A DNA stretch of 64,000 nucleotides from Spirosoma aureum (GTDB taxonomy: Bacteria > Bacteroidota > Bacteroidia > Cytophagales > Spirosomataceae), in the NCBI RefSeq assembly GCF_011604685.1, contig NZ_CP050063.1:1882501-1946500 (forward strand). Reading direction: 5' to 3'. Below are positions 12,856-47,306 of this stretch, piece after piece; position 1 is the stretch's first letter; every line of letters starts with the position of its first letter. Below the pieces are notes generated by a model. The model saw nothing but the letters and a program-made list of their open reading frames with translations, had not been told where the DNA came from and made no database searches. The translations under genes were made by a program, and so were the position numbers.

Positions 12856-15800
12856 ATGTCAAAACAATTACTGCATTTTAGGGCGGCTTTTGTGCTAGTC
12901 AGCAGTATACTACTGTCCGTACTCGGTGGGAGCGGAGCACTAGCGCAGGTAACGACCTCAGTCATTGATGGTCTAGTAACCGACGATAAAGGCGGTCCTT
13001 TGCCTGGTGCCACAGTCGTAGCCATTCACGAACCATCGGGTAGCCGCTACGGGACAACAACGAATGCTTCCGGGCGCTACACTCTCCCTGGTGTTCGGGT
13101 TGGTGGTCCGTTCAAAGTAACAGCCACCTTTGTGGGGTTCAAGGATCAGGTAGTTGAAGGTATTTTTACGAACCTTGGTACATCTGCCGACGTAAGTTTC
13201 AAGATGGCTGACAACAGCCAGCAATTGTCTGAAATTGTTGTGACCAGTAATCGGAATGGTATAATCAGTTCTAACCGTACGGGTGCTGCTGCATCCTATG
13301 GTAGGGAAACGATCAATACTGTTCCAACAATTGGCCGTACGATTGCTGACATTACCAAGTATAACGCCTATGGCAATGGGCAATCATTTGGTGGTCAGGA
13401 TAGCCGTTTCAATAACATCACCATCGATGGTGCCGTTTTCAATAACGGATTCGGTCTAGGCTCATCTGCTCAGGCTGGTGGACGTACTGGTACCACCGCC
13501 GTTTCATTAGATGCTCTTGATGAAATTCAATTGAACGTTGCTCCTTATGATGTTCGTCAAACTGGCTTTTCGGGAGCAGGTATTAATGCCGTAACGCGTT
13601 CAGGAACGAACGATTTCTCTGGATCAGTTTATTATCTTTTTCAGAACAGCAGTTTGGCCGGCAAAAAGGCGAATGGTGTAGATCTTCCTCCAGTAACTAT
13701 CGATAAAAAGACATCGGGCTTCCGGATTGGTGGACCGATCATTAAGAACAAATTGTTCTTCTTCGCTAACGTAGAGCAATTTAAGAGTAGTGTACCAGCT
13801 CTGGACTGGGTTGCTCAACGTGATGGCGCAACTGGAAACGTGTCGCGTGTAACAGCGGCCGATTTGGAGGATCTTAGCGCGTTTATGAAAACGAATTTTA
13901 ATCGTGATCTTGGCGCCATTGACAATTTCAATAACCAGGTAAAGAGTTTGAAAGGTCTGATTCGTATCGATTATAACATCAACGACAATCACAAACTTGC
14001 TGTACGTTATTCTCACCATAATTCTGAATCAGACCAGGCGATTAGCAACAGTAATAGTAGTAATACTGCTGGTAATGGAAACCGCACCGGATATTCTTCC
14101 TCTGGATATGCTGGTAACCTGGCACTTTCTCCACAAAATACAGGCTATAAAATTGCCGATAACACCCGGTCAATAGCTATCGAATTAAACTCTACATTTG
14201 GCGGGAAATTTGCTAACAAGCTGGTTGCAACTTACAATAAGCAGATTGAGGACCGGACATATTTGACAGGTGTATTTCCGACCATTGATATTCTAAAAGA
14301 TGGAACGACATACACGTCTATTGGTTTCGATCCCTTTACCCCAAACAATAAGCTGAATTATTCGACACTGAATATTACGGATAATTTCAGCTATTTTGCT
14401 GGCAAGCACACGCTTACATTTGGCTTGTCTTACGAAAAATATACGTCTAACAACGTATTCTTCCCGGCCTCTAACGGCGTGTATGTTTATAACTCAATTG
14501 CTGATTTCAAAACGGCAGCACTGGCTTCTATAAATAATCCGAATGCAACTACGTCACCCGTGGCTTTGAATCGGTATAACCTGCGCTATTCACTGGTACC
14601 AGGCGGTGCTGAACCACTGCAAACGTTGCATAGAAGCACATATAGCGCCTATGTTCAGGATGAATTTCAGATCAATCCAACTTTCAAACTGACAGCCGGT
14701 GTTAGGGCTGATATTTTCGCTTACGATAACTCGACAGCTTCTGCGTTTAACAACCCAAGAGTAGCTAGTCTGACTTACAAAGACGAAAATGGGGCTAATT
14801 ATTATCTTAATACTGGTGCTTTTCCTAAAGCCCGCCTGCTAGTATCACCTCGCGTTGGTTTCAACTGGGATGTTAAAGGTGATAAAATGACCCAAATTCG
14901 TGGAGGTAGCGGTTTGTTTGTATCTCGTATCCCGGAAGTATTGGTTTCTAACCAATTAGGAAACAACGGAGTAAATACGGGCGTCATTAACTTTCAGAAT
15001 ACAACGGCCTATCCATTTGTGACTGATCCCAGCAAATTGCCTGCCGCAGTACAACCGCCAACGAATACGAATGTTGAGAGTTTGACGGGATATGCAGTGA
15101 ATGCAACTGATCCGAACTTAAAATATCCAACCGTTTGGAAAACGAACATTGCTATTGATCAGCGATTACCATGGGGCTTAATTGGAACTTTGGAAGTAAT
15201 CTACAATAAGACGATTCAAGGTCTCCGCTATATTGATGCTAACCTCAAAGCAGCAGACCGCCAACTTACCGGACCAGATACACGTGGCCGTTTTCCAGCT
15301 TCCGGGGTAACTGGTACAGCGGCTATCAATAAAGCCCGTTATATTAACGATCCGTACAATACAAACGCGTTTGTTCTTAAGAATACAACTGAGGGAAGCG
15401 CCTATACGTTTACGGCTAAACTTGAAAAGCCATCTAATAACGGTTTCGGTGGAATGCTAGCCTATACATACGGATTAGCAAGAGATTTAATGTCAGTTGG
15501 TAGCACCGTTGTAGGTAATACACCTACAGTTGCTGGACAAAATTATCTAACGCTGTCGTATGGTGATAATGATTTGCGTCATCGGATTATTGGTTATGTT
15601 AATTACCGACTCAATTACGGTGGTAAATTTGGTGGTTCTACAACATTTACACTCGGTGGTTCATCAACCAGTGGTTACAAGCAGTCATACATTTATGGTA
15701 GTGACTTAAACGGCGATGGTCAAACTAATGATTTGCTGTTTGTTCCGGGAAAAGCTACAGACTTAACATTTGCATCATTGACGGTTGGCTCAGGTGCTTC

Positions 15801-22150: not shown

Positions 22151-22478
22151 TAATAAATTAAGGCCTTTATTCTTCCAATTAATGAATAAATATTATTGGC
22201 TAAGTCGATAAGACTCTTGTAGATAGCACATCACATCTGTGTATATAGCCTTATTTTGTGTCTGATCGACTCAAATCATGCCCTTACTTTGCCTATGAGT
22301 ATACCCTTACCGCTGGTTTCCACTCCTGGCAGGTTCATCAATAAGTCTATGGCTACCGTAGTTTAGGCTTCTGATCGTTATCAACTCAATCGCTTTTTGG
22401 CTGGTTCGTGCTTCATTCCCGTTAAGTCCACTTCTGTTTGTGACCTCTTTACTACCGATTCAATTAAGCAAATCTGTT
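22151..22478. other. Leader region of the large secreted protein gene
   Basis: 328 bases before the preferred start of the beta-helix protein. TTACTTTG at 22284-22291 is one mismatch from a -7 element, but no well-spaced -33 element is seen. An open frame runs in from GTG 22440, in frame with the gene. No RNA motif recognised. Confidence 0.35.
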
Positions 22479-25400
22479 ATGAAAAAATTCTTTACCTTTC
22501 TATTATGGAGCCTATGCTTATGGACGAACTTGTCTGTTCTGGCGCAATCCAGGCAATTGGTCCTTCCATTCCCAACTCCCAGCGCACTCCAACACAACGT
22601 GGCTGCCAATCATTCAGGTCCTGTTGTTACTGGTTCGGCCAGGACAGTAGCCTCTACTATTCGTTATGTGAAAGCAGGGGCGGAGGGCGATGGATCTTCC
22701 TGGAGTAATGCTTCAGGTGATCTGCAGGCCATGATCAACGCGTCGGCGTCAGGCGATCAGGTGTGGGTGGCAAGAGGTACGTACATGCCTAGCATCAGTG
22801 GGTTGAGCGATCCCCGCACGGCGAGCTTTTCCAATAAGAACGGAGTGAGCGTGTTAGGAGGCTTCACAGGAATAGCCGGTACGGAGAATAACGTCACCGC
22901 CCGCTCAGCCATTCCCTCTTCGACCACCCTGTCAGGTGACATTGGTACCGTCGGCGATAAGGCTGACAACTGCTACCATGTTATTTTAAACAATAGCAAT
23001 GGGTTAGACAATTCAGCTGTTTTAGACGGATTTGTCATTACGGGTGGGAAGGCTGATGGAGCGAGTGGCGAGTTATCTGCCTATGGCGGGGGAATATTTA
23101 ATATTGGTAGTTCTCCAAGTATCCTTAATTGTCTGTTTACTCAGAATAGTGGGATCACAGGTGCATCAATAGCCAACGCGTTTACGGCTGGATTACGAAT
23201 TGCGAACTGTAGTTTCGTCAACAATGTCGCCAACCAGATTGGAGGTATCTATGATCAGAACGGTGACGGTACGTCGATAGTGAACTGCTTTTTTGGCCAA
23301 AATTCCGCCGACGTTCCAGATGCTGCATTCAGAGGGAATATGGGCACAATGAATGTAATCAACTGCACTTTTAGTGGAAATACGCCCGGTGCTTTCAGAG
23401 TACAAAACAATACCACTGTCAATCTGGTCAATAGCCTGTTCTGGAATAACGGTGGTCAGGATGCGATTCATGTAGAGGAAACGGCCGCTTCGCTCAATGC
23501 CAGCTACTGTTTGATTGAAGCGAACGAGACCGACTATACCGACGGGGGGCACAACCAGACACTCAACCAATTCCCATTTGCCAATGTTACGGGGCCTCAG
23601 CTATCGCTGTGCGCTCCAGCCGTTGATGCGGGCAACGACGCGGCCAACACAACCACAACCGACGTGCTGGGCAATGCTCGTAAGCTGCGTACCATCGACA
23701 TCGGGGCGGCCGAATACCAGGGGGAAGCCTACGTTTCCCCGACCATTACCAGCACGTCTCAGTCGGCTACCACCGTGTGCGTGGGAACAACGGTTCATTT
23801 TAACTATACTGTATCGTTAGGCTCGGGTGGTGGTAGTATTGATTTTTATCAGGACAATACAGTAGTGAGCAACTTATTTTCGGGTACAACCAATACATCG
23901 ATTTCTTCAGTTTATAGTTTGCCTGTCAATCAAAGTGGCTCTTATCGACTTGTCGTCACAGGTGCCTGTACGAGCCTTACATCTACCTACGCGTCTATTA
24001 CAGCCAATTCCCTGCCTACCTCCTTCAGCGTGACTGGTGGAGGTCCTTATTGTGCCGGGAGCACGGGCTCTACCGTGGGCCTTTCTGGTTCCCAGTCCGG
24101 GGTCAACTACCAGCTTTTGCTTGAAGGCAACCCCACTGGCAATGTCATACCCGGTACGAATAACCCCATTAGTTTTGGTCCTCAGAGTACCACTGGTACC
24201 TACACCGTCCAGGCCGTTACGACGACGAGTTGTAGTCAGACCATGAGCGGGTCGGCCGTTGTCAGCGTCAACGCCCCGCCTTTGGTGAGCATCAACCCGT
24301 CGGCGACAACCATCTGCGCCGGTCAGAGTACCGCACTCACGGCTACACCCACTACGGGCCTAACCTACAAGTGGAGCACAGGAGAGACCACGGCCAGCAT
24401 CTCGGTCTCGCTGGCCGGGCCATACTCGCTGACGGGTACGAATACCACTACGGGTTGCAGCAACACGGCCACCGCCACTTTAACCGTCCAGAGCGCCCCT
24501 ACCAATGCCAGCCTGACGGGCGGTACACTAACCTGTGCCACAACGAGTGTTACGCTGACGGCTTCGGCTACCGGGGGTAACTCCTACACACTGAGTGATG
24601 GGCAAATCAACAACACGGGCCAGTTTGTGGTCAACCAACCGGGGAGCTACACAGTGACCATTGCCAACGTGAGCGGGTGTACGACCACGGCTACTGCCCT
24701 GGTTAGCCAGGATAACACACTGCCCTCGGCTGCCATGAGTCCTGCCAGTGCAACCTTAACCTGTGCCAGTTCCACCGTCCAATTGGTGGCCAGCGGGGGC
24801 AGTACGTATCTCTTTAGTAATGGGGCTAGCCAACCCGGCGGCCCTTCCTCCAACACGGCTACCGTCAGTCAGGCGGGCGTGTATTCGGTGACCGTCATTG
24901 CAGCCAATGGCTGTTCGGCTACCGCTTCATCGACCGTGATCGCTGATCAGACGCCCCCCACTATCTCAATCAACCCCAGCTCCGCGACGCTGACCTGTGC
25001 CAATCCCACGGCCAGTCTCTCGGCCGTCAGTACAGGCTCGGTTCATTGGTCGAATGGTTCTACCGAGAGCCAGATCCAGGTCAGTAGTGCAGGCTCCTAT
25101 TCGGTAACGGCGACGGCCCCCAATGGCTGCACAGCATCGACCTCGATTCTTATCCAGCAAGATAATACTCCGCCCACAGTAAGCATCTCTCCCAGTTCTG
25201 CGACGCTGAGTTGTGCTAGTCCGTCGGTGAGTCTGACGGCCGTGGGTACGGGGGCAGTTCGCTGGGATGATAACTCCACAAATCCCGTCCGGACGGTGAG
25301 TGCATCCGGTACGTATTCGGTCACCCTAACTTCGACCAATGGTTGTACCGCAACCGCTAGTGCCATTATCGGACAGGACGATACGGCTCCTTCTGTCAGC

Positions 25401-27380
25401 ATTACGCCCTCCAGCGCCACGCTGACCTGTGCCAATCCCACGGTTAGCCTCACTGCAATCGGAACAGGAACCCTACAATGGTCGACAGGCTCCACCCAGT
25501 CACTGATTACGGCGAGCGCGGCCGACATCTATTCTGTGACGCTAACGGGGGGCAATGGATGCACAGCGACGGCCAGTGCCAGCATCACCGCCGATCAATC
25601 CGCTCCTGATCTGAGTATTAGCCCTGCCACTGCGACCCTCACCTGTACCAATCCGTCGGCAACCCTTACGGCGGTGGGAGCGGGAAGCTATCACTGGTCA
25701 ACAGGCTCCAACGATCCACAGATCATCGTCAGTAGTGGGGATATCTACTCGGTGACGCTGACTGCCGCTAACGGTTGTACGGCGACGGCCAGTGCCACGG
25801 TTTCGGCTGATCAATCGGCCCCTTTGGTGAGCATTTCTCCCTCTTCAGTGACGCTTACCTGCGAGAGTCCATCGAAGACATTAACTGCACAGGGGTCAGG
25901 TTCTTTTCGCTGGAATACGGGTTCTGTTGAGCCGCAAATCAGTGTTACTACACCAGGTCTTTATTCGGTGACACTGACTAGTGGAAATGGCTGTTCGGCC
26001 GTTGCAACCAGCACGGTGGAAAGCAACAGTAATCTGCCCATCCCTGTCCTGGTTGCCAGTGCCACCTCAACAGCCAATCAACCGATCTCGGTAACGGCCA
26101 GTGGCTGCTCGGGTACACTGAACTGGAGTCCACAGGGCGGAACAGGCCAGGCCATTGGAGACGTTTATACATTCACTCAGCCCGGCAACTATACCCTCTC
26201 GGCGAGTTGTACGGTAGGAGCCTGCACAAGCCCTGCAAGCACTCCAATCACCTTGCAAATCCTGCCAGGTGGCTTCGCAATCACGGCTGTGATAATGGTC
26301 AACTGTACGCTCATCGATGAAGCTAAAGGTGGCTATCAGGTTCAGTTCACGCCCCAGTATTCGGGTCAAAACAGTAATCCTATCAGTTTCTCGGTGGTCA
26401 ATGAGATGCCTACCACCACGGCTTCTCCACCGTATTCACTTAAGCTCTACACCGATAATCCGGTGATTACGCTAGTAGCCAATCAGGCGGGTAATGCTGA
26501 AGCCCGCTTTGCCTACAACTGGTTTGCTTCCTGCCAGAGTGGTACCGATCCCAATCAAGCTCCTACAACCAGTGGCATCCCTAATCAGACCATTCTGGTG
26601 GGACAAGCCTATCAGTTGAACCTCAACAACTACTTTTCGGACCCTGATGGACAATCCTTAACGTATTCCGCTACAGGTTTACCGGCTGGGTTAAGTGTCA
26701 ATGGTACCTTTATCAGCGGCACGCCATCTACCACAGGAGTTAGCAGTGTTCAGGTAACCGCTCTTGATCCAGGTGGTTTGTCAGCCCAAACCAGCTTTCA
26801 GCTGACAGTCAATCCAGCACCGACTACGCCTTCGGGCTTTACGATTGTGGGTGTCTCAACGGTGAGCTGTGAGGTAGTGAGTCCAGGTCTGAGACGAGTG
26901 ACCTTTACGCCCCAGTACGGAGGCAGCGACAGTTCTCCGATTAGTTTCTCGGTAGTCAATGAGATGTCGACTACCACCAATCCGGGACCTTACAGTCTGA
27001 ATCTGTATACCGATAACCCCAGTATTACCCTGACGGCTAAACAGGGGGCATCCCTGGCCAGCTATCTCTACAACTGGTTAGCAGCTTGTAGCAGCCCAGC
27101 GCGAGTGGGTACGGGTGAAGCAGGAGCGGGCTTGCAAGTGAAGGTATTGGGCAATCCGATTGAGGGCAAATCTGTCGAGGTAGAGATCCGGGGTGTAATG
27201 GGCCAGGCCGTACAGCTAGATCTGGTGGACATGCAGGGCAAAGTCCTCCATCAGCAACGGCTTGAGGAAGTGGGTTCCGTAGAACGGGTGAGTGTGCCGG
27301 TTGGTACGGGCAAGGGGCTATTACTCTTGCAGGTTAATACCGCTCAGCAACACCAGCAAGTGAAGCTATTGAAACCTTAG
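22479..27380 (+). CDS. Giant secreted beta-helix / Ig-repeat protein with T9SS-type C-terminal domain
   Basis: A 1633-residue protein. Signal peptide (KKFFTFLLWSLCLWTNLSVLAQ); right-handed beta-helix about 60-400 (GDQVWVARGTYMPS, NCLFTQNSG and similar turns) closed by a choice-of-anchor-Q-like DIGAAEYQG; Ig/PKD-like modules; seven tandem about 70-residue repeats (about residues 675-1185) with TLTC and YSVTLT...NGC; two copies of an unnamed about 85-residue domain (about 1265-1355 and 1440-1530) flanking a putative Ig domain (SDPDGQSLTYSATGLPAGLS); and a C-terminal sorting domain (VKVLGNP, VDMQGKVLHQQ, LLLLQV). Start at ATG 22479, where the signal peptide begins. Likely exported by T9SS as a surface adhesin; the ligand is unknown. 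Confidence 0.9.
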   Translation: MKKFFTFLLWSLCLWTNLSVLAQSRQLVLPFPTPSALQHNVAANHSGPVVTGSARTVASTIRYVKAGAEGDGSSWSNASGDLQAMINASASGDQVWVARGTYMPSISGLSDPRTASFSNKNGVSVLGGFTGIAGTENNVTARSAIPSSTTLSGDIGTVGDKADNCYHVILNNSNGLDNSAVLDGFVITGGKADGASGELSAYGGGIFNIGSSPSILNCLFTQNSGITGASIANAFTAGLRIANCSFVNNVANQIGGIYDQNGDGTSIVNCFFGQNSADVPDAAFRGNMGTMNVINCTFSGNTPGAFRVQNNTTVNLVNSLFWNNGGQDAIHVEETAASLNASYCLIEANETDYTDGGHNQTLNQFPFANVTGPQLSLCAPAVDAGNDAANTTTTDVLGNARKLRTIDIGAAEYQGEAYVSPTITSTSQSATTVCVGTTVHFNYTVSLGSGGGSIDFYQDNTVVSNLFSGTTNTSISSVYSLPVNQSGSYRLVVTGACTSLTSTYASITANSLPTSFSVTGGGPYCAGSTGSTVGLSGSQSGVNYQLLLEGNPTGNVIPGTNNPISFGPQSTTGTYTVQAVTTTSCSQTMSGSAVVSVNAPPLVSINPSATTICAGQSTALTATPTTGLTYKWSTGETTASISVSLAGPYSLTGTNTTTGCSNTATATLTVQSAPTNASLTGGTLTCATTSVTLTASATGGNSYTLSDGQINNTGQFVVNQPGSYTVTIANVSGCTTTATALVSQDNTLPSAAMSPASATLTCASSTVQLVASGGSTYLFSNGASQPGGPSSNTATVSQAGVYSVTVIAANGCSATASSTVIADQTPPTISINPSSATLTCANPTASLSAVSTGSVHWSNGSTESQIQVSSAGSYSVTATAPNGCTASTSILIQQDNTPPTVSISPSSATLSCASPSVSLTAVGTGAVRWDDNSTNPVRTVSASGTYSVTLTSTNGCTATASAIIGQDDTAPSVSITPSSATLTCANPTVSLTAIGTGTLQWSTGSTQSLITASAADIYSVTLTGGNGCTATASASITADQSAPDLSISPATATLTCTNPSATLTAVGAGSYHWSTGSNDPQIIVSSGDIYSVTLTAANGCTATASATVSADQSAPLVSISPSSVTLTCESPSKTLTAQGSGSFRWNTGSVEPQISVTTPGLYSVTLTSGNGCSAVATSTVESNSNLPIPVLVASATSTANQPISVTASGCSGTLNWSPQGGTGQAIGDVYTFTQPGNYTLSASCTVGACTSPASTPITLQILPGGFAITAVIMVNCTLIDEAKGGYQVQFTPQYSGQNSNPISFSVVNEMPTTTASPPYSLKLYTDNPVITLVANQAGNAEARFAYNWFASCQSGTDPNQAPTTSGIPNQTILVGQAYQLNLNNYFSDPDGQSLTYSATGLPAGLSVNGTFISGTPSTTGVSSVQVTALDPGGLSAQTSFQLTVNPAPTTPSGFTIVGVSTVSCEVVSPGLRRVTFTPQYGGSDSSPISFSVVNEMSTTTNPGPYSLNLYTDNPSITLTAKQGASLASYLYNWLAACSSPARVGTGEAGAGLQVKVLGNPIEGKSVEVEIRGVMGQAVQLDLVDMQGKVLHQQRLEEVGSVERVSVPVGTGKGLLLLQVNTAQQHQQVKLLKP
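24504..26030 (+). repeat. Seven tandem coding repeats of about 215 bp
   Basis: Within the giant secreted protein gene, the units begin NASLTGGTLTC, AAMSPASATLTC, ISINPSSATLTC, VSISPSSATLSC, VSITPSSATLTC, LSISPATATLTC and VSISPSSVTLTC. Each has a Cys early and an NGC near the end, suggesting one disulfide per unit. The first two units are most divergent and the later ones most alike. Confidence 0.9.
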
Positions 27381-27433: not shown

Positions 27434-27663
27434 GCTGGCCAAGACACCAGGCGATTCCCTGCCGCAGGTCTATTGCTGTTGCCCGGCAACTGGCCGGTCG
27501 GTCTTGTCGATGAATAAGTGGCTTTAGCCAGATCACGGTTTGCCAAAGTTTTTAATCAATTTTCATTACAGATCAATTCAGTGGTCCACAACAATGGTTG
27601 ATAATGCTTTTCGGCAACCATATTTGAGAGACGACAAAAGCAGCTAACGTGTACCTTAGCAAG

Positions 27664-28302
27664 ATGTCGTTAGGAATCTTTAAATTCGCGTCAATGAACT
27701 GCTCTCCCGGATTGCCTTCGTTGGCTATCGTTGCCACAATTGTTATCTCGCTGCTTTCCTCATGCTCAACTCGTCGCAGTGAAGCAGACCATGCGTCTGC
27801 TTCTCAGAGCGCGGCAGTTACCGTGTCCATACCGTTATTCACAAGCGCGGACCCTCTTGTTAAAGATCGGATCCATGATTTACTTAGAGGGTATTTCAAC
27901 TTGAACCAGGCATTGATCAGCGATAGTCTGGCCGGAGCAAAGACGGCTGCTGCCGACCTTTTGGCAACAACCGATAAATTTGACATGTCGAAACTGACGG
28001 CTGAGCAAATGGATTTCTATTTCATTCAATCATCCAAACTAAAAACGGGTTTGCAAGTAATCAGTAACAGTACTGAGATTGAACAGGCCCGATCAGGTCT
28101 TGCTGGTGTTAGCGAAGCGATGTATGCTGTTGTGAAAGCGTTCCGTGTGAATAAGTCTCCGCTGTATTACCAGTATTGTCCTATGGCGCTCAACAATCAG
28201 GGTGCGACCTGGCTAAGCGCTACCGAAGAACTCGCCAATCCCTATATGGGACAAATGATGCTGAACTGCGGAAGAACGCAGGAAAAGCTGGAATACCAAT
28301 GA
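27664..28302 (+). CDS. DUF3347-type lipoprotein, first gene of an ABC importer operon
   Basis: About 212 residues. A lipoprotein signal (IVISLLSSC) anchors it to a membrane. Residues about 50-130 are helical (LLRGYFNLNQALISDSLAGA), and the C-terminal part carries YYQYCPMALNNQGATWLSAT followed by ELANPYMGQMMLNCG, the pattern of DUF3347, a domain seen with CusB-type copper efflux proteins. The conserved Cys-Pro-Met and Met-Met-x-x-Cys residues could bind a soft metal. Start is uncertain: ATG 27664 or 27694, or GTG 27649. The stop overlaps the permease ATG (ATGA), so translation is probably coupled. The link to copper is inferred from the family. Confidence 0.8.
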   Translation: MSLGIFKFASMNCSPGLPSLAIVATIVISLLSSCSTRRSEADHASASQSAAVTVSIPLFTSADPLVKDRIHDLLRGYFNLNQALISDSLAGAKTAAADLLATTDKFDMSKLTAEQMDFYFIQSSKLKTGLQVISNSTEIEQARSGLAGVSEAMYAVVKAFRVNKSPLYYQYCPMALNNQGATWLSATEELANPYMGQMMLNCGRTQEKLEYQ

Positions 28303-29111
28303 AGGCCAACATCATGACTATGCAAAGTCCATCATCGCCGACGAAACGAGTAAGTTCACCGCTGGGCAGATTCTCTTCGATCCTGGTTTTGCTGGGAGTG
28401 ATTCTCTTGTGGTATGGAATTTCAGCGCTCAGCTTGTTTCCTGAGTATGCTTTCCCATCTCCGGCCTCCGTATTCGTAAGTTTTAAAGAAGAATTAACCG
28501 CAGGACGTCTGCTAAACGATATCGTTGCCTCACTTTGGCGTGTAGCTATAGGGTTTGTGCTGGCAGCGGGCATGGGCATACCAATTGGATTGTGGCTGGG
28601 CCAGCATCTCCAGGCGCGCCAGGCACTTGTACCCATGCTTAACTTCTTTCGCTTTCTGTCACCGCTGGCGTGGATACCTTTTGCCATCCTCTGGTTTCAC
28701 ATCGGAGATAAGCCAGCTATATTCCTGATATTTATGGCAACGTTCTTTCCGATGACACTCGCCACAATGGTTGCTGTAGCTGGTATTCCAAGTATCTACT
28801 TTCGGGTGGCGAAAGACTACAACTATAGCGGGGTAGAACTTCTTACACATATTACGTTCCCTGCCGTACTTCCACAGGTAATAACCGCCTTGAGAATGAG
28901 CTATGGTATTGCCTGGGTAGTGATTGTTGCCGCTGAGATGGTTGGTTGTCAGGATGGATTGGGCTACGGTATCTGGGAGGCACGGAACGGATTGCGTTTA
29001 GACTCCGCTGTCTGTTATATGATGGTAATCGGATCGCTCGGTATGGGCATAGATCGTCTACTTGCTCAGTTAACAAACTTACCGGCTGTACGTTGGGGAT
29101 ATGAGAGATAA
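28299..29111 (+). CDS. ABC transporter permease (nitrate/sulfonate/taurine type)
   Basis: A 270-residue permease of the BPD_transp_1 fold with about six membrane helices (for example ILVLLGVILLWYGISAL and VAIGFVLAAGMGIPIGLWLG). The EAA-type loop for ATPase contact is at YNYSGVELLTHITFPAVLPQ. The start ATG at 28299 overlaps the upstream stop by four bases; the open frame continues further upstream but only inside the previous gene. It overlaps the ATPase gene by 11 bases. Sequence type is SsuC/TauC/NrtB-like; the true substrate is unknown. Confidence 0.92.
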   Translation: MKANIMTMQSPSSPTKRVSSPLGRFSSILVLLGVILLWYGISALSLFPEYAFPSPASVFVSFKEELTAGRLLNDIVASLWRVAIGFVLAAGMGIPIGLWLGQHLQARQALVPMLNFFRFLSPLAWIPFAILWFHIGDKPAIFLIFMATFFPMTLATMVAVAGIPSIYFRVAKDYNYSGVELLTHITFPAVLPQVITALRMSYGIAWVVIVAAEMVGCQDGLGYGIWEARNGLRLDSAVCYMMVIGSLGMGIDRLLAQLTNLPAVRWGYER

Positions 29112-29844
29112 GCAAGCGAGCAAGTTGGTATTTGATAAGGTATATCATCGCTATGGCGACGTAGCCGTATTGGAGAATCTTAACCTTGAGGTCAAGGCCG
29201 GCGAAGTGGTTGTATTGGTTGGCCCAAGTGGTTGTGGTAAAACAACCATTTTGAATTTGCTATCGGGGCATATTGCCCCGGTGTCTGGAAAGATCACCAG
29301 AGAGGGCACAGCCCGAACAGTGTATCAGCAGGACGGATTGTTTCCGTGGCTAACGGTCTCCGAGAATGTCGGAATAGGGCTTCGATCGGTGAAAGATGAG
29401 AAGCGACGTGACTATGATATGACGGAACTGCTTGAATTGGTAAATCTTAAAAGTTTTGGCAACCACTATCCCCATCAGTTGTCTGGCGGTATGCGGCAAC
29501 GGGCTGAGTTAGCTCGGGTACTGGCCGGCGATTCTGACATCCTGTTGATGGATGAGCCATTCTCCGCGCTTGACTATCAGGCCAGACTTAACATGCGCAG
29601 TGAGCTTGCACGAGTGCTCGAGAAAAAGCCACGAACGGTTGTTTTCGTGACTCATGATATAGAAGAAGCTGCTCAGTTGGCTGATCGTGTTCTGGTTTTG
29701 TCCAAAAGGCCCGCAACGATTTGCCGGGAACTATCCATTACTGTTCCTCGTCCACGGGGTTTGGCTGATGATGAGGTGGTCGAGGCAATGAGAATGATCC
29801 TCCGTGAGCTGGGTCTGAACAATACTAGTAGTGTGCCTGAGTAG
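29101..29844 (+). CDS. ABC transporter ATP-binding protein (SsuB/NrtD-like)
   Basis: A 247-residue ATPase. Walker A GPSGCGKTT, Q-loop QQDGLFPW, signature LSGGMRQR, Walker B ILLMDEP and the switch His (VTHD) are all intact. ATG at 29101 lies within the end of the permease gene. It powers import through the adjoining permease; the family (nitrate/sulfonate/taurine/bicarbonate and thiamine-precursor importers) does not fix the substrate. Confidence 0.94.
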   Translation: MRDKQASKLVFDKVYHRYGDVAVLENLNLEVKAGEVVVLVGPSGCGKTTILNLLSGHIAPVSGKITREGTARTVYQQDGLFPWLTVSENVGIGLRSVKDEKRRDYDMTELLELVNLKSFGNHYPHQLSGGMRQRAELARVLAGDSDILLMDEPFSALDYQARLNMRSELARVLEKKPRTVVFVTHDIEEAAQLADRVLVLSKRPATICRELSITVPRPRGLADDEVVEAMRMILRELGLNNTSSVPE

Positions 29845-29889
29845 TAGGGTTTTGATACTACAAACTTTCATGTATATATTGCTGACAGG

Positions 29890-30954
29890 ATGAAACGAAC
29901 AGGAATAAAACTCTTTATCGGCGTTGCCGCTGTTATTACAGTCTTGGGAGTACTTCGTTATCGACCCTTTGGCGACTTTACTGGCTCTCGCGCAGAAGTT
30001 ATCCATAAAGGTGGCAACAAGCATGCCGATCGAGAACTTACTGTGGGTTTTTTACCCGTAACCTGTCATCTTACCTGTCCGGTTACCGACTTCGCTTCGA
30101 AGACAACTGAAACCAATACCAACTTCAATTCGCGCGTCTTTACCGATTTTCCGACGGTCGTCAGTGCGTTGGAAGCGAAACAAGTTCAGGCAACGTTTAT
30201 GATCGTTCCGTTGGCGATGAAGCTTCGGGAGCAGGGGGTACCCGTAAAAATTTGTTATCTCGGACACCGAGACGGCTCGCAGGTTGTGGTTGGCAAGAAC
30301 AGTAAGATCAGAAGCCTGGTCGACCTCAAGGGGAAAAAAGTAGCGGTTCCCAGTCTGTTCAGTAATCAAAATTTCGTTCTTCACAAGCTGATGTCGGATT
30401 ATCAAATGCAGCCCAACGACATCAATTTTGTCGTACTTCCTCCCCCTGACATGCCAACCTCGCTCGCTGCGGGCGCCATCGATGCTTACTTTGTCGGTGA
30501 GCCATTCTGTGCAAAGGCAGAGCTCGACGGTGTTGGACGCGTTCTCTATTATGCGCGAGATATATGGCCCAACTTTATCTCCTGCGCGCTGGTTGTACAC
30601 GAAGATCTTATAAAAAGCCAGCCAGACATGGTCAGGGATCTTGTGCGTGGTATTGCGCAGTCTGGCGCGTGGGCCGAAACACACCGGGCAGAAGCCGCGA
30701 AATTGGTAGCTCCCTATTACCGGCAAGATGAGAAAGTCCTTAATTATGTGCTTACTGCTGATCCCAAACGTGTTAGCTATGTAAACCTTACCCCTACAGA
30801 TAAAGACCTTGCACGCATTGAGGATATGGGATTGAGCATGGGCCTATTGACCAAACGTACACCGATGAATGAGTTAATAGATCGTAAATATGTGCCTGAA
30901 GTAATACGGGAAGCGTCGATCGATGTAGCGCAGATACCCACTCCAAACAAGTAA
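29890..30954 (+). CDS. ABC importer substrate-binding protein with Cys-His-Cys motif
   Basis: A 354-residue periplasmic binding protein of the NMT1/SsuA-like fold (type 2). The N-terminus (IKLFIGVAAVITVLGVL) is a signal anchor with no lipobox. Typical parts: ELTVGFLPV at the first strand, VSALEAKQVQATFMIVP, LKGKKVAVPS, and AAGAIDAYFVGEPFCAKAEL. Unusual is the segment VTCHLTCPVTDF at the ligand-binding loop after strand one, with C-H-x-x-C, plus a further Cys near the EPFC turn. These could bind a metal or a thiol-reactive ligand. It is 45 bases after the ATPase gene and completes the importer. Specificity is not assignable. Confidence 0.88.
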   Translation: MKRTGIKLFIGVAAVITVLGVLRYRPFGDFTGSRAEVIHKGGNKHADRELTVGFLPVTCHLTCPVTDFASKTTETNTNFNSRVFTDFPTVVSALEAKQVQATFMIVPLAMKLREQGVPVKICYLGHRDGSQVVVGKNSKIRSLVDLKGKKVAVPSLFSNQNFVLHKLMSDYQMQPNDINFVVLPPPDMPTSLAAGAIDAYFVGEPFCAKAELDGVGRVLYYARDIWPNFISCALVVHEDLIKSQPDMVRDLVRGIAQSGAWAETHRAEAAKLVAPYYRQDEKVLNYVLTADPKRVSYVNLTPTDKDLARIEDMGLSMGLLTKRTPMNELIDRKYVPEVIREASIDVAQIPTPNK

Positions 30955-31113
30955 CTCTATTGACCACCACCTCTATTGGTTGTTGTGGGTTTTCCTGGAT
31001 AGGTGCATAGGAATGACACCTAAATCATGCGATAGCCAAATAAAAGACATGGTTATTTTTCGCAATTGGTGATGCTCCAATCGCTTGATGCCTGCTCTGA
31101 CAAGGCATTTAAT

Positions 31114-46848: not shown

Positions 46849-47065
46849 AGGATAATGCGTTTTCTGCCCTAACGTTTTCAGGCATTATGAAGGCATAACG
46901 GCACTGAAAACCATAAACATATGGAACCGCACAAAACCACTCCCGGTTAGCGGTGCGATGAGGTGAGTGATGCTTAGTAGGCCTCGTAGGGCATACAGTG
47001 CCGTGTGTAGCGCATGTGATTAAACGATTTATAGTCCCTAACCGTCCGCCTTCGCGGTTGCTTTA
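46849..47065 (-). promoter_or_regulatory. Long leader between the SAM riboswitch and metX
   Basis: 217 bases of leader RNA between aptamer and metX start. A candidate hairpin pairs CGCAC (46928-46932) with GTGCG (46953-46957), with more pairing inside. Which element is the expression platform is not clear by eye. Confidence 0.45.
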
Positions 47066-47133
47066 GGCAGGAGTTAGCACCTTGCCATGTGGTAGGTTGC
47101 CAGCGATTCACAGAGCCTGATCTCTCCTCGCTT
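47066..47133 (-). ncRNA. SAM-I (S-box) riboswitch aptamer upstream of metX
   Basis: On the minus strand the order of conserved elements is GAGAGATC, AGGCTC then GTGAA, GCTGGCAACC, then AAGGTGCTAA followed by CTCCTGCC. This matches the Bacteroidota S-box pattern (GAGGGA, GGCCC, GAA, GGCAACC, AAGGTGCTAAATCC). P1 is formed by GAGGAG with CTCCTGC. It controls the methionine gene metX immediately downstream. Confidence 0.9.
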
Positions 47134-47306
47134 CTTTATAAATCAATTGACGTCGGTATGAAATGATTGACGTCTGGCAATTGACTTGATACCGCAAGTA
47201 TACTAGCCAAAGCGCGCCAATCCAAACACAGACCCTATTTTCTGACCGTTGCCTTATTTTTTTTGACTTCGTTGGCAAGTAAGGTTTATTTAATCGGGCG
47301 GATATT

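Follow-up and report, generated by a model that had tools for sequence, protein, structure and literature searches.

What would an ATP-binding cassette (ABC) importer of the nitrate/taurine (NitT/TauT) type carry if the ligand loop of its substrate-binding protein (SBP) were built around two cysteines and a histidine, and what would a lipoprotein of the DUF3347 family be doing in front of it? The question is raised by a locus of Spirosoma aureum, lying within a stretch of 64,000 nucleotides of its genome (contig NZ_CP050063.1, positions 1,882,501 to 1,946,500 of the forward strand; hereafter the window, to which all coordinates without a locus label refer), where four tightly packed genes at 27664–30954 encode a DUF3347 lipoprotein, a permease, an ATPase and an SBP. 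A sequence-only reading had taken them for a metal- or thiol-ligand acquisition system, possibly for copper. The answer that we favor, tentatively and at rather less than even chances, is an inner-membrane importer of the NitT/TauT type that takes up a thiophilic ligand, Cu(I) or some other soft metal being the likeliest, and to which Spirosoma would have added the DUF3347 lipoprotein.

The binding protein and its loop

The SBP gene (29890–30954, plus strand, like all the genes of the unit) encodes a protein of the NMT1_2 fold (3.1e-29), with a predicted N-terminal helix at residues 2–24 that would serve as a membrane anchor. Residues 57–68 (VTCHLTCPVTDF, coordinates checked) include the loop between the first strand and the first helix, whose codons C59-H60-L61-T62-C63-P64 occupy 30064–30081 (checked). 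The motif T-C59-H60-L-T-C63-P is identical in all 29 orthologues that cover it (27 of 27 alignment rows and two more), H126 (30265–30267), Q160 and C232 (30583–30585) are invariant in 28 of 28, and C122 and C207 are present in 24/27 and 25/28, respectively; the truncated SBP of L024 is excluded from these motif counts, and both L023 and L024 are excluded from alignment A1. The orthologues come from 25 related loci, at 58–92% identity, found mostly in Chitinophagaceae or in metagenome-assembled genomes (MAGs) of Bacteroidota, as well as in Mucilaginibacter and a Bryobacterales MAG, with further importer loci in L106, L107, L153 and L154. The gene order permease-ATPase-SBP recurs in 22 of the 25, the remaining three being L003 (at a contig edge), L017 and L024; as the order recurs and the motif residues do not vary, the arrangement is more than chance.

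It had been suggested from the sequence that the motif might be kept only beside DUF3347. This is ruled out, since a profile search over whole loci finds DUF3347 at only 2 of 30 importer loci (the window and L001 of Spirosoma profusum among 28 sources, and neither of L153 and L154), the motif being invariant in the orthologues that have no DUF3347; judged from the alignment, it belongs to the importer rather than to the pairing. The homologue with the same neighbor, that of S. profusum, has both DUF3347 and the motif, so that the refuting case named in the sequence-only reading, a close homologue beside DUF3347 but devoid of the motif, did not arise.

In the AlphaFold2 model of the SBP (pLDDT 80.8 for the best of five, which span 49 to 81), residues 55–64 lie between a strand at 48–54 and a helix at 65–72; the loop cysteines may reach the ligand cleft. 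In the permease alignment, no Cys or His column is kept in at least 23 of 25 sequences, the cysteines of the GCQDG and VCYM segments being missing in L023 and L106; M240 is present in 25/25, and is Met in one of six outgroup permeases.

Relatives linked to carbon monoxide dehydrogenase

In the SBP tree (IQ-TREE, 343 columns, 27 sequences, 14 of the 25 loci being left out), the SBP belongs to a clade of 14 sequences with an ultrafast bootstrap (UFBoot) of 100. Its sister (UFBoot 91) is formed by a fusion of receiver, SBP and CheW domains together with the SBPs of L108 and L109, whose genes adjoin a gene of the carbon monoxide dehydrogenase (CODH) family, and the next branch (UFBoot 86) contains 3UN6, a Staphylococcus aureus ABC SBP titled zinc-bound, and an SBP from an R. 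albus plasmid located near cooS. Membership in the CODH-linked clade itself was rejected on these values, the SBP having its own clade. The SBP of L110, although it too has a CODH-family gene nearby, groups elsewhere, with SBPs from plasmids that are encoded next to acyl-CoA dehydrogenase genes. As regards the fusion, Pfam recognizes a receiver, an NMT1-type domain and CheW in one protein of L111 (6317–8260), with similarly long frames in L103 and L104, and the binding-protein fold is thus apparently used there for intracellular signaling.

Inoue et al. (2019; PMC6344411) proposed that the transporters beside Ni-CODH genes (their clade B) import a metal such as Ni2+, and a 2026 eLife paper gives 64% ABC-associated genes for clade B. 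In other words, for the nearest relatives of the importer the import of a metal, which the sequence-only reading had suspected here, has been proposed in print. The CODH-linked transporters of L108, L109 and L114 have the same three components, and their SBPs share with ours G-H-x-x-G and C232, at 31–32% identity for L108 and L109 and 25% for L114; they differ in that D or H59 is replaced here by C, L63 (L108 and L109) by C, H160 by Q and C231 by S, and in that the SBP gene comes first in L109 and L114, whereas here it comes last. 3UN6 is the best solved match by both sequence and fold, at 22–23% identity, and has T-H-S in place of T-C-H, a His at 160 and a Cys-Cys pair.

Compared with nine sister-type proteins, in which the residues at 59 and 63 are not Cys, the clade has gained C59 and C63 and has lost W87, H160 and C231 (residue 87 having been checked in three of the nine). 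H126 is common to the sister groups, with His in all nine rows, and all nine have a Cys-Cys pair at 231–232, so that the earlier statement that importers of this type never normally need such cysteines was too strong. Two soft ligands gained and a histidine lost would favor a metal that is softer than either nickel or zinc.

A nickel or zinc importer such as that proposed for the CODH-linked group, here serving another metalloenzyme, would agree with the sister position of the SBP and with 3UN6 as its best solved match. However, a Prismane-family gene (PF03063, CODH/HCP) was found in none of the 10 importer genomes searched (completeness being stated for four, and the control search giving matches in 5 of 14 known genomes), the company of DUF3347 is that of copper, and the exchange of H160 for additional Cys would point to a softer metal; we therefore regard this explanation as unlikely.

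Nitrate, sulfonate and thiol-reactive ligands

The residues of NrtA that contact nitrate are W102, Q155, H196, G240 and K269 (PMC13204499), K269 and H196 being given also in PMC8786288. Their equivalents in the SBP are F87, S130, Q160, G203 and C232, only the Gly being kept, according to a mapping made via four NrtA-like proteins (one of which has N at 130). The four NrtA-like proteins all have Lys at position 232, and if the mapping holds C232 would occupy the place of the nitrate-binding Lys269. Since four of the five contact positions differ, a nitrate importer of the NrtABCD type was rejected, and the F, S, Q and C found here likewise set the SBP apart from NrtA and CmpA, the nitrate and bicarbonate SBPs. 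A taurine or alkanesulfonate importer was also rejected, as the scores remain under the NCBIfam cut-offs: 57.1 of 304.25 for the taurine SBP, 118.2 of 342 for TauC and 135.8 of 163.5 for the SsuA family. The claim that this is not a nitrate or taurine importer is thus borne out.

An importer of some other small organic molecule or oxyanion deserves more attention, and in this case C59 and C63 would be disulfide-bonded in the oxidizing periplasm and so give the ligand loop its shape, DUF3347 being an unrelated or protective partner. The structures solved for this fold bear titles that name sulfonates, nitrate, bicarbonate, pyrroloquinoline quinone (PQQ), thiamine compounds and a taurine-site ligand as bound, and a related group of SBPs has acyl-CoA dehydrogenase genes as neighbors, in one case with OsmC, a company to be expected of organosulfur use; moreover, the best 25 of 119 neighbor families of the importers include no copper family. 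However, C232 and H126 are invariant as well, the nitrate contacts are lost and the SsuA and taurine cut-offs missed, and the nearest clade is the one with the metal proposal. We consider this a possible explanation, though a doubtful one.

The best NCBIfam models for the permease are SaoP, ntrB and TauC, each under its cut-off, and SaoP and SaoA are the top equivalogs for the permease and the ATPase, yet an SAO transporter was rejected because all the scores are far below threshold (SaoX 67.7 of 300, SaoP 158.5 of 295, SaoA 193.3 of 360). This likeness could nevertheless point to a thiol-reactive ligand (an organomercurial, arsenite or a thiol cofactor) bound covalently or by the trio of cysteines, with a chemistry like that of SAO or AioX, and among the fold matches are arsenite-bound AioX and DszB C27S, the Cys of DszB presumably lying in the loop that matches the motif loop of the SBP. 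Against this, SaoX and SaoP score about as high for the CODH-linked proteins (the ATPase was left out of the comparison), and the import of arsenite or mercury would need a detoxifying partner, whereas among the best 25 of the 119 neighbor families no family other than those of the importer is widely common to the loci. We hold this explanation to be quite improbable. A literature search on SaoX/SaoE found nothing related.

The DUF3347 lipoprotein in Spirosoma

The DUF3347 gene occupies 27664–28302 (ATG at 27664, stop at 28300–28302, the frame being open from a GTG at 27649), and its product has a Leu-Leu-Ser-Ser-Cys lipobox, read by eye, and passes the gathering score of PF11827 (60.8 bits, with the cut-off at 25.5; E = 2.5e-16). 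The permease (28299–29111; BPD_transp_1, 1.8e-18) begins with an ATG that overlaps the DUF3347 stop as ATGA, the ATPase frame (29101–29844; ABC_tran, 3.6e-31) overlaps that of the permease by 11 bases, and a gap of 45 bases precedes the SBP; a permease, an ATPase and an NMT1-type SBP are therefore encoded together, each with a Pfam match above cut-off, as in an importer of the NitT/TauT type. The close packing described in the sequence-only reading was found in full, although the ATGA junction holds only for the window: in S. profusum the ATG of the permease comes less than 20 bases after the DUF3347 stop.

The same four-gene unit is present in S. profusum (L001; the same contig also appears as G197 and L125). 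When an 18-kb stretch of that genome was compared by blastn with window positions 15001–45000, one long match was obtained (27607–30963, 81.5% DNA identity), covering the four genes and the 57 bases that precede them, and the remaining matches, of 44–60 bases, all lie inside a large repeat-rich gene of the Ig/PKD type. A gene of this kind flanks the unit in both species: it lies upstream in the window (22440–27380), whereas in S. profusum (L125:11260–14235) translated matches place it downstream, on the opposite strand. The ratio of nonsynonymous to synonymous substitutions (dN/dS, NG86) between the two species is 0.22 for DUF3347, 0.05 for the permease, 0.11 for the ATPase and 0.04 for the SBP, with dS of 0.74–0.90. 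As the surroundings are rearranged while the four genes and the 57 bases are kept at these low ratios, the four genes form a unit, and the low values for all of them would fit joint purifying selection since the species split; the proposed pairing of DUF3347 with the importer holds in both species. The window genome, a single contig of 8.9 Mb, gives a single match each for DUF3347 and the SBP, and in each of the two importer-bearing Spirosoma genomes the importer-linked DUF3347 is the only one found.

The C-terminal segment C177-P-M ... W-L-S ... N-P-Y ... M204-x-x-C207-G (28177–28272, residues counted from 27649, codons checked) includes both the CPM and the MMLNCG noted from the sequence (coordinates checked). 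Its Cys, Pro, Met, Trp, Asn, Tyr and Gly positions do not vary among the 29 other DUF3347 proteins of Spirosomaceae that were aligned (L058 being excluded) and are kept here and in S. profusum, so that the window protein retains C177, M179, M204 and C207. The occurrence of DUF3347 with copper-handling proteins, which had been asserted from knowledge of the family, is confirmed in the Spirosomaceae: in the neighborhoods of 30 loci chosen by high DUF3347 score, which favors one subtype, 22 of 57 scanned open reading frames (ORFs) are multicopper oxidases, and others include four HMA, two E1-E2 ATPase, two HMBD and one CusB-like domain (the 57 comprise the fused ORF of L061 and 56 from a list of 78). 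In eight other Spirosomaceae DUF3347 regions, inspected by eye, CusA/CusB-like or other metal-type genes are seen in L117, L120, L123 and L124. The proteins of the copper loci belong to the same PF11827 with C-P-M ... M-x-x-C-G, but adjoin multicopper oxidase or CusAB-like genes and have several conserved His that are missing here, where the neighbor is the importer. A literature search on DUF3347 turned up only a paper on pneumococcal penicillin resistance, and one requiring all of the copper and NMT1-type terms found nothing.

As regards regulation, an Rfam scan of the window and six related loci gave no riboswitch in the vicinity of the importer, where its single match is a tRNA gene in L005, immediately before the permease; an S-adenosylmethionine (SAM) riboswitch lies at 47026–47144 on the minus strand of the window, 16 kb from the importer. 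Counts of promoter-like patterns (8 against 4.9 ± 2.0 in shuffles) and terminator-like patterns (1 against 4.0 ± 1.8) are not informative.

Distribution and neighbors of the importer

The importer is rare and patchy. In the window's family, 43 of 222 genomes match at E ≤ 0.001, two of them closely (100 and 93%), the others being partial and at most 31% identical; at 1e-80 there are matches in 13 of the 394 genomes of the family to which the Flavitalea genome belongs, and in 2 of 395 at the level of the class, one of these with a truncated SBP. In the phylum, 19 of 395 genomes match at 1e-20, the motif being present only in G000 and G344, and in the order of G344 there are matches in 2 of 128 genomes. 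Further samples gave a match in 1 of 8 genomes. This distribution would be in keeping with horizontal spread. Spread of close relatives on viruses or plasmids was rejected, as the viral contigs searched gave none and all 797 related plasmid records are below 60% identity.

No recurrent metal gene was found beside the importers, among the best 25 of the 119 families (90 neighbor ORFs). At four loci (L019:1775–4414, L023:86–2720, L025:1–2258 and L015:3–677; assigned by Pfam in three and by clustering for L025) a gene for an RnfD-like membrane protein stands before the permease, and in three of these it is itself preceded by an FG-GAP gene, with a UnbV_ASPIC domain in L019 only. The plasmid relatives of the RnfD-like protein are mostly from Streptomyces, and many of them bear the annotation of enediyne biosynthesis proteins; a literature search joining UnbV with UnbU found nothing. 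The place upstream of the importer may thus be open to several interchangeable partners, DUF3347 being one of them.

Small coiled-coil-like proteins with I-x-x-N-Q heptads are found in 12 of the 25 loci (L001, L002, L003, L005–L009, L011, L013, L016 and L018) but neither in the window nor in the 91 loci L026–L116, which include some importer loci whose flanks are short. They are also present in 8 of 36 Spirosoma genomes, the copy of the window genome (G000:C1:7000554–7000778) being far from the importer. Two similar-looking membrane proteins, which by eye we take to be DUF3179-like, lie beside the importer in L009 (7159–8340) and beside the NQ-heptad gene of the window genome in L127 (about 101–1331). 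A glycosyltransferase and GH130 pair adjoins the importer in L106 (3212–6431, Pfam), and by eye is also near the signaling fusion in L111 (8488–11759). In Parafilimonas (L017:6001–7089) the SBP has no adjacent permease and ATPase, and the SBP of L024 (6016–6705) is truncated and has no N-terminal loop.

A possible soft-metal importer

In the soft-metal reading, the metal, perhaps Cu(I), would be caught in the periplasm as an ion or a small complex; in Spirosoma, the DUF3347 lipoprotein, a member of a family otherwise found with copper genes that here came to stand before the importer, would probably first collect the same metal and hand it over to the SBP. The tethered SBP would then hold the ligand in a site to which the first ligand loop contributes C59, H60 and C63, C232 and H126 being its other members, and from there the permease and the ATPase would move it into the cytoplasm. 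The narrower version, a copper importer in the strict sense, would have an ancestral pocket of the Asp/His type rebuilt with a CxxxC-His loop and a Cys in the cleft, with DUF3347 turned from the company of copper oxidases and export to uptake; this more specific history seems to us somewhat unlikely.

Several observations weigh against the soft-metal reading. Firstly, to our knowledge ABC-driven import of copper into the cytoplasm is rarely documented, and the lack of a copper family among the best-ranked neighbor families, mentioned above, is accompanied by a lack of any Pfam family recurring more than four times among the 90 nearest-neighbor ORFs of the 25 loci. Secondly, DUF3347 was not found in 28 of the 30 importer loci (although L003 and L013–L015 have little upstream DNA and L024 a truncated SBP), and at four loci the RnfD-like gene stands in its place. 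Furthermore, the window DUF3347 has lost four His present in 27–29 of the 29 other proteins (some of these are also missing in other Spirosoma DUF3347 types), and by eye no metal-type genes are visible around the DUF3347 of L119, L121 and L122, L118 being ambiguous. Finally, as regards the pocket, the relatives have H160 and C231, and several have H229, all lost here, so that it is not simply richer in metal ligands; the AlphaFold confidence at the motif loop is modest (blocks of 69 and 57), and C59 and C63 could be joined in a disulfide.

In summary, a clean clade of nitrate/taurine-type importers has been defined by a changed pocket and an invariant Cys-His loop, for which the automated labels "aliphatic sulfonate" or "nitrate" are probably wrong. 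If the ligand were copper, the importer would count among the few examples of copper taken up by an ABC transporter, and DUF3347 would acquire a role that can be tested; with a single DUF3347 per genome, within a unit kept in two species, the knock-out needed for such a test in Spirosoma would be simple.

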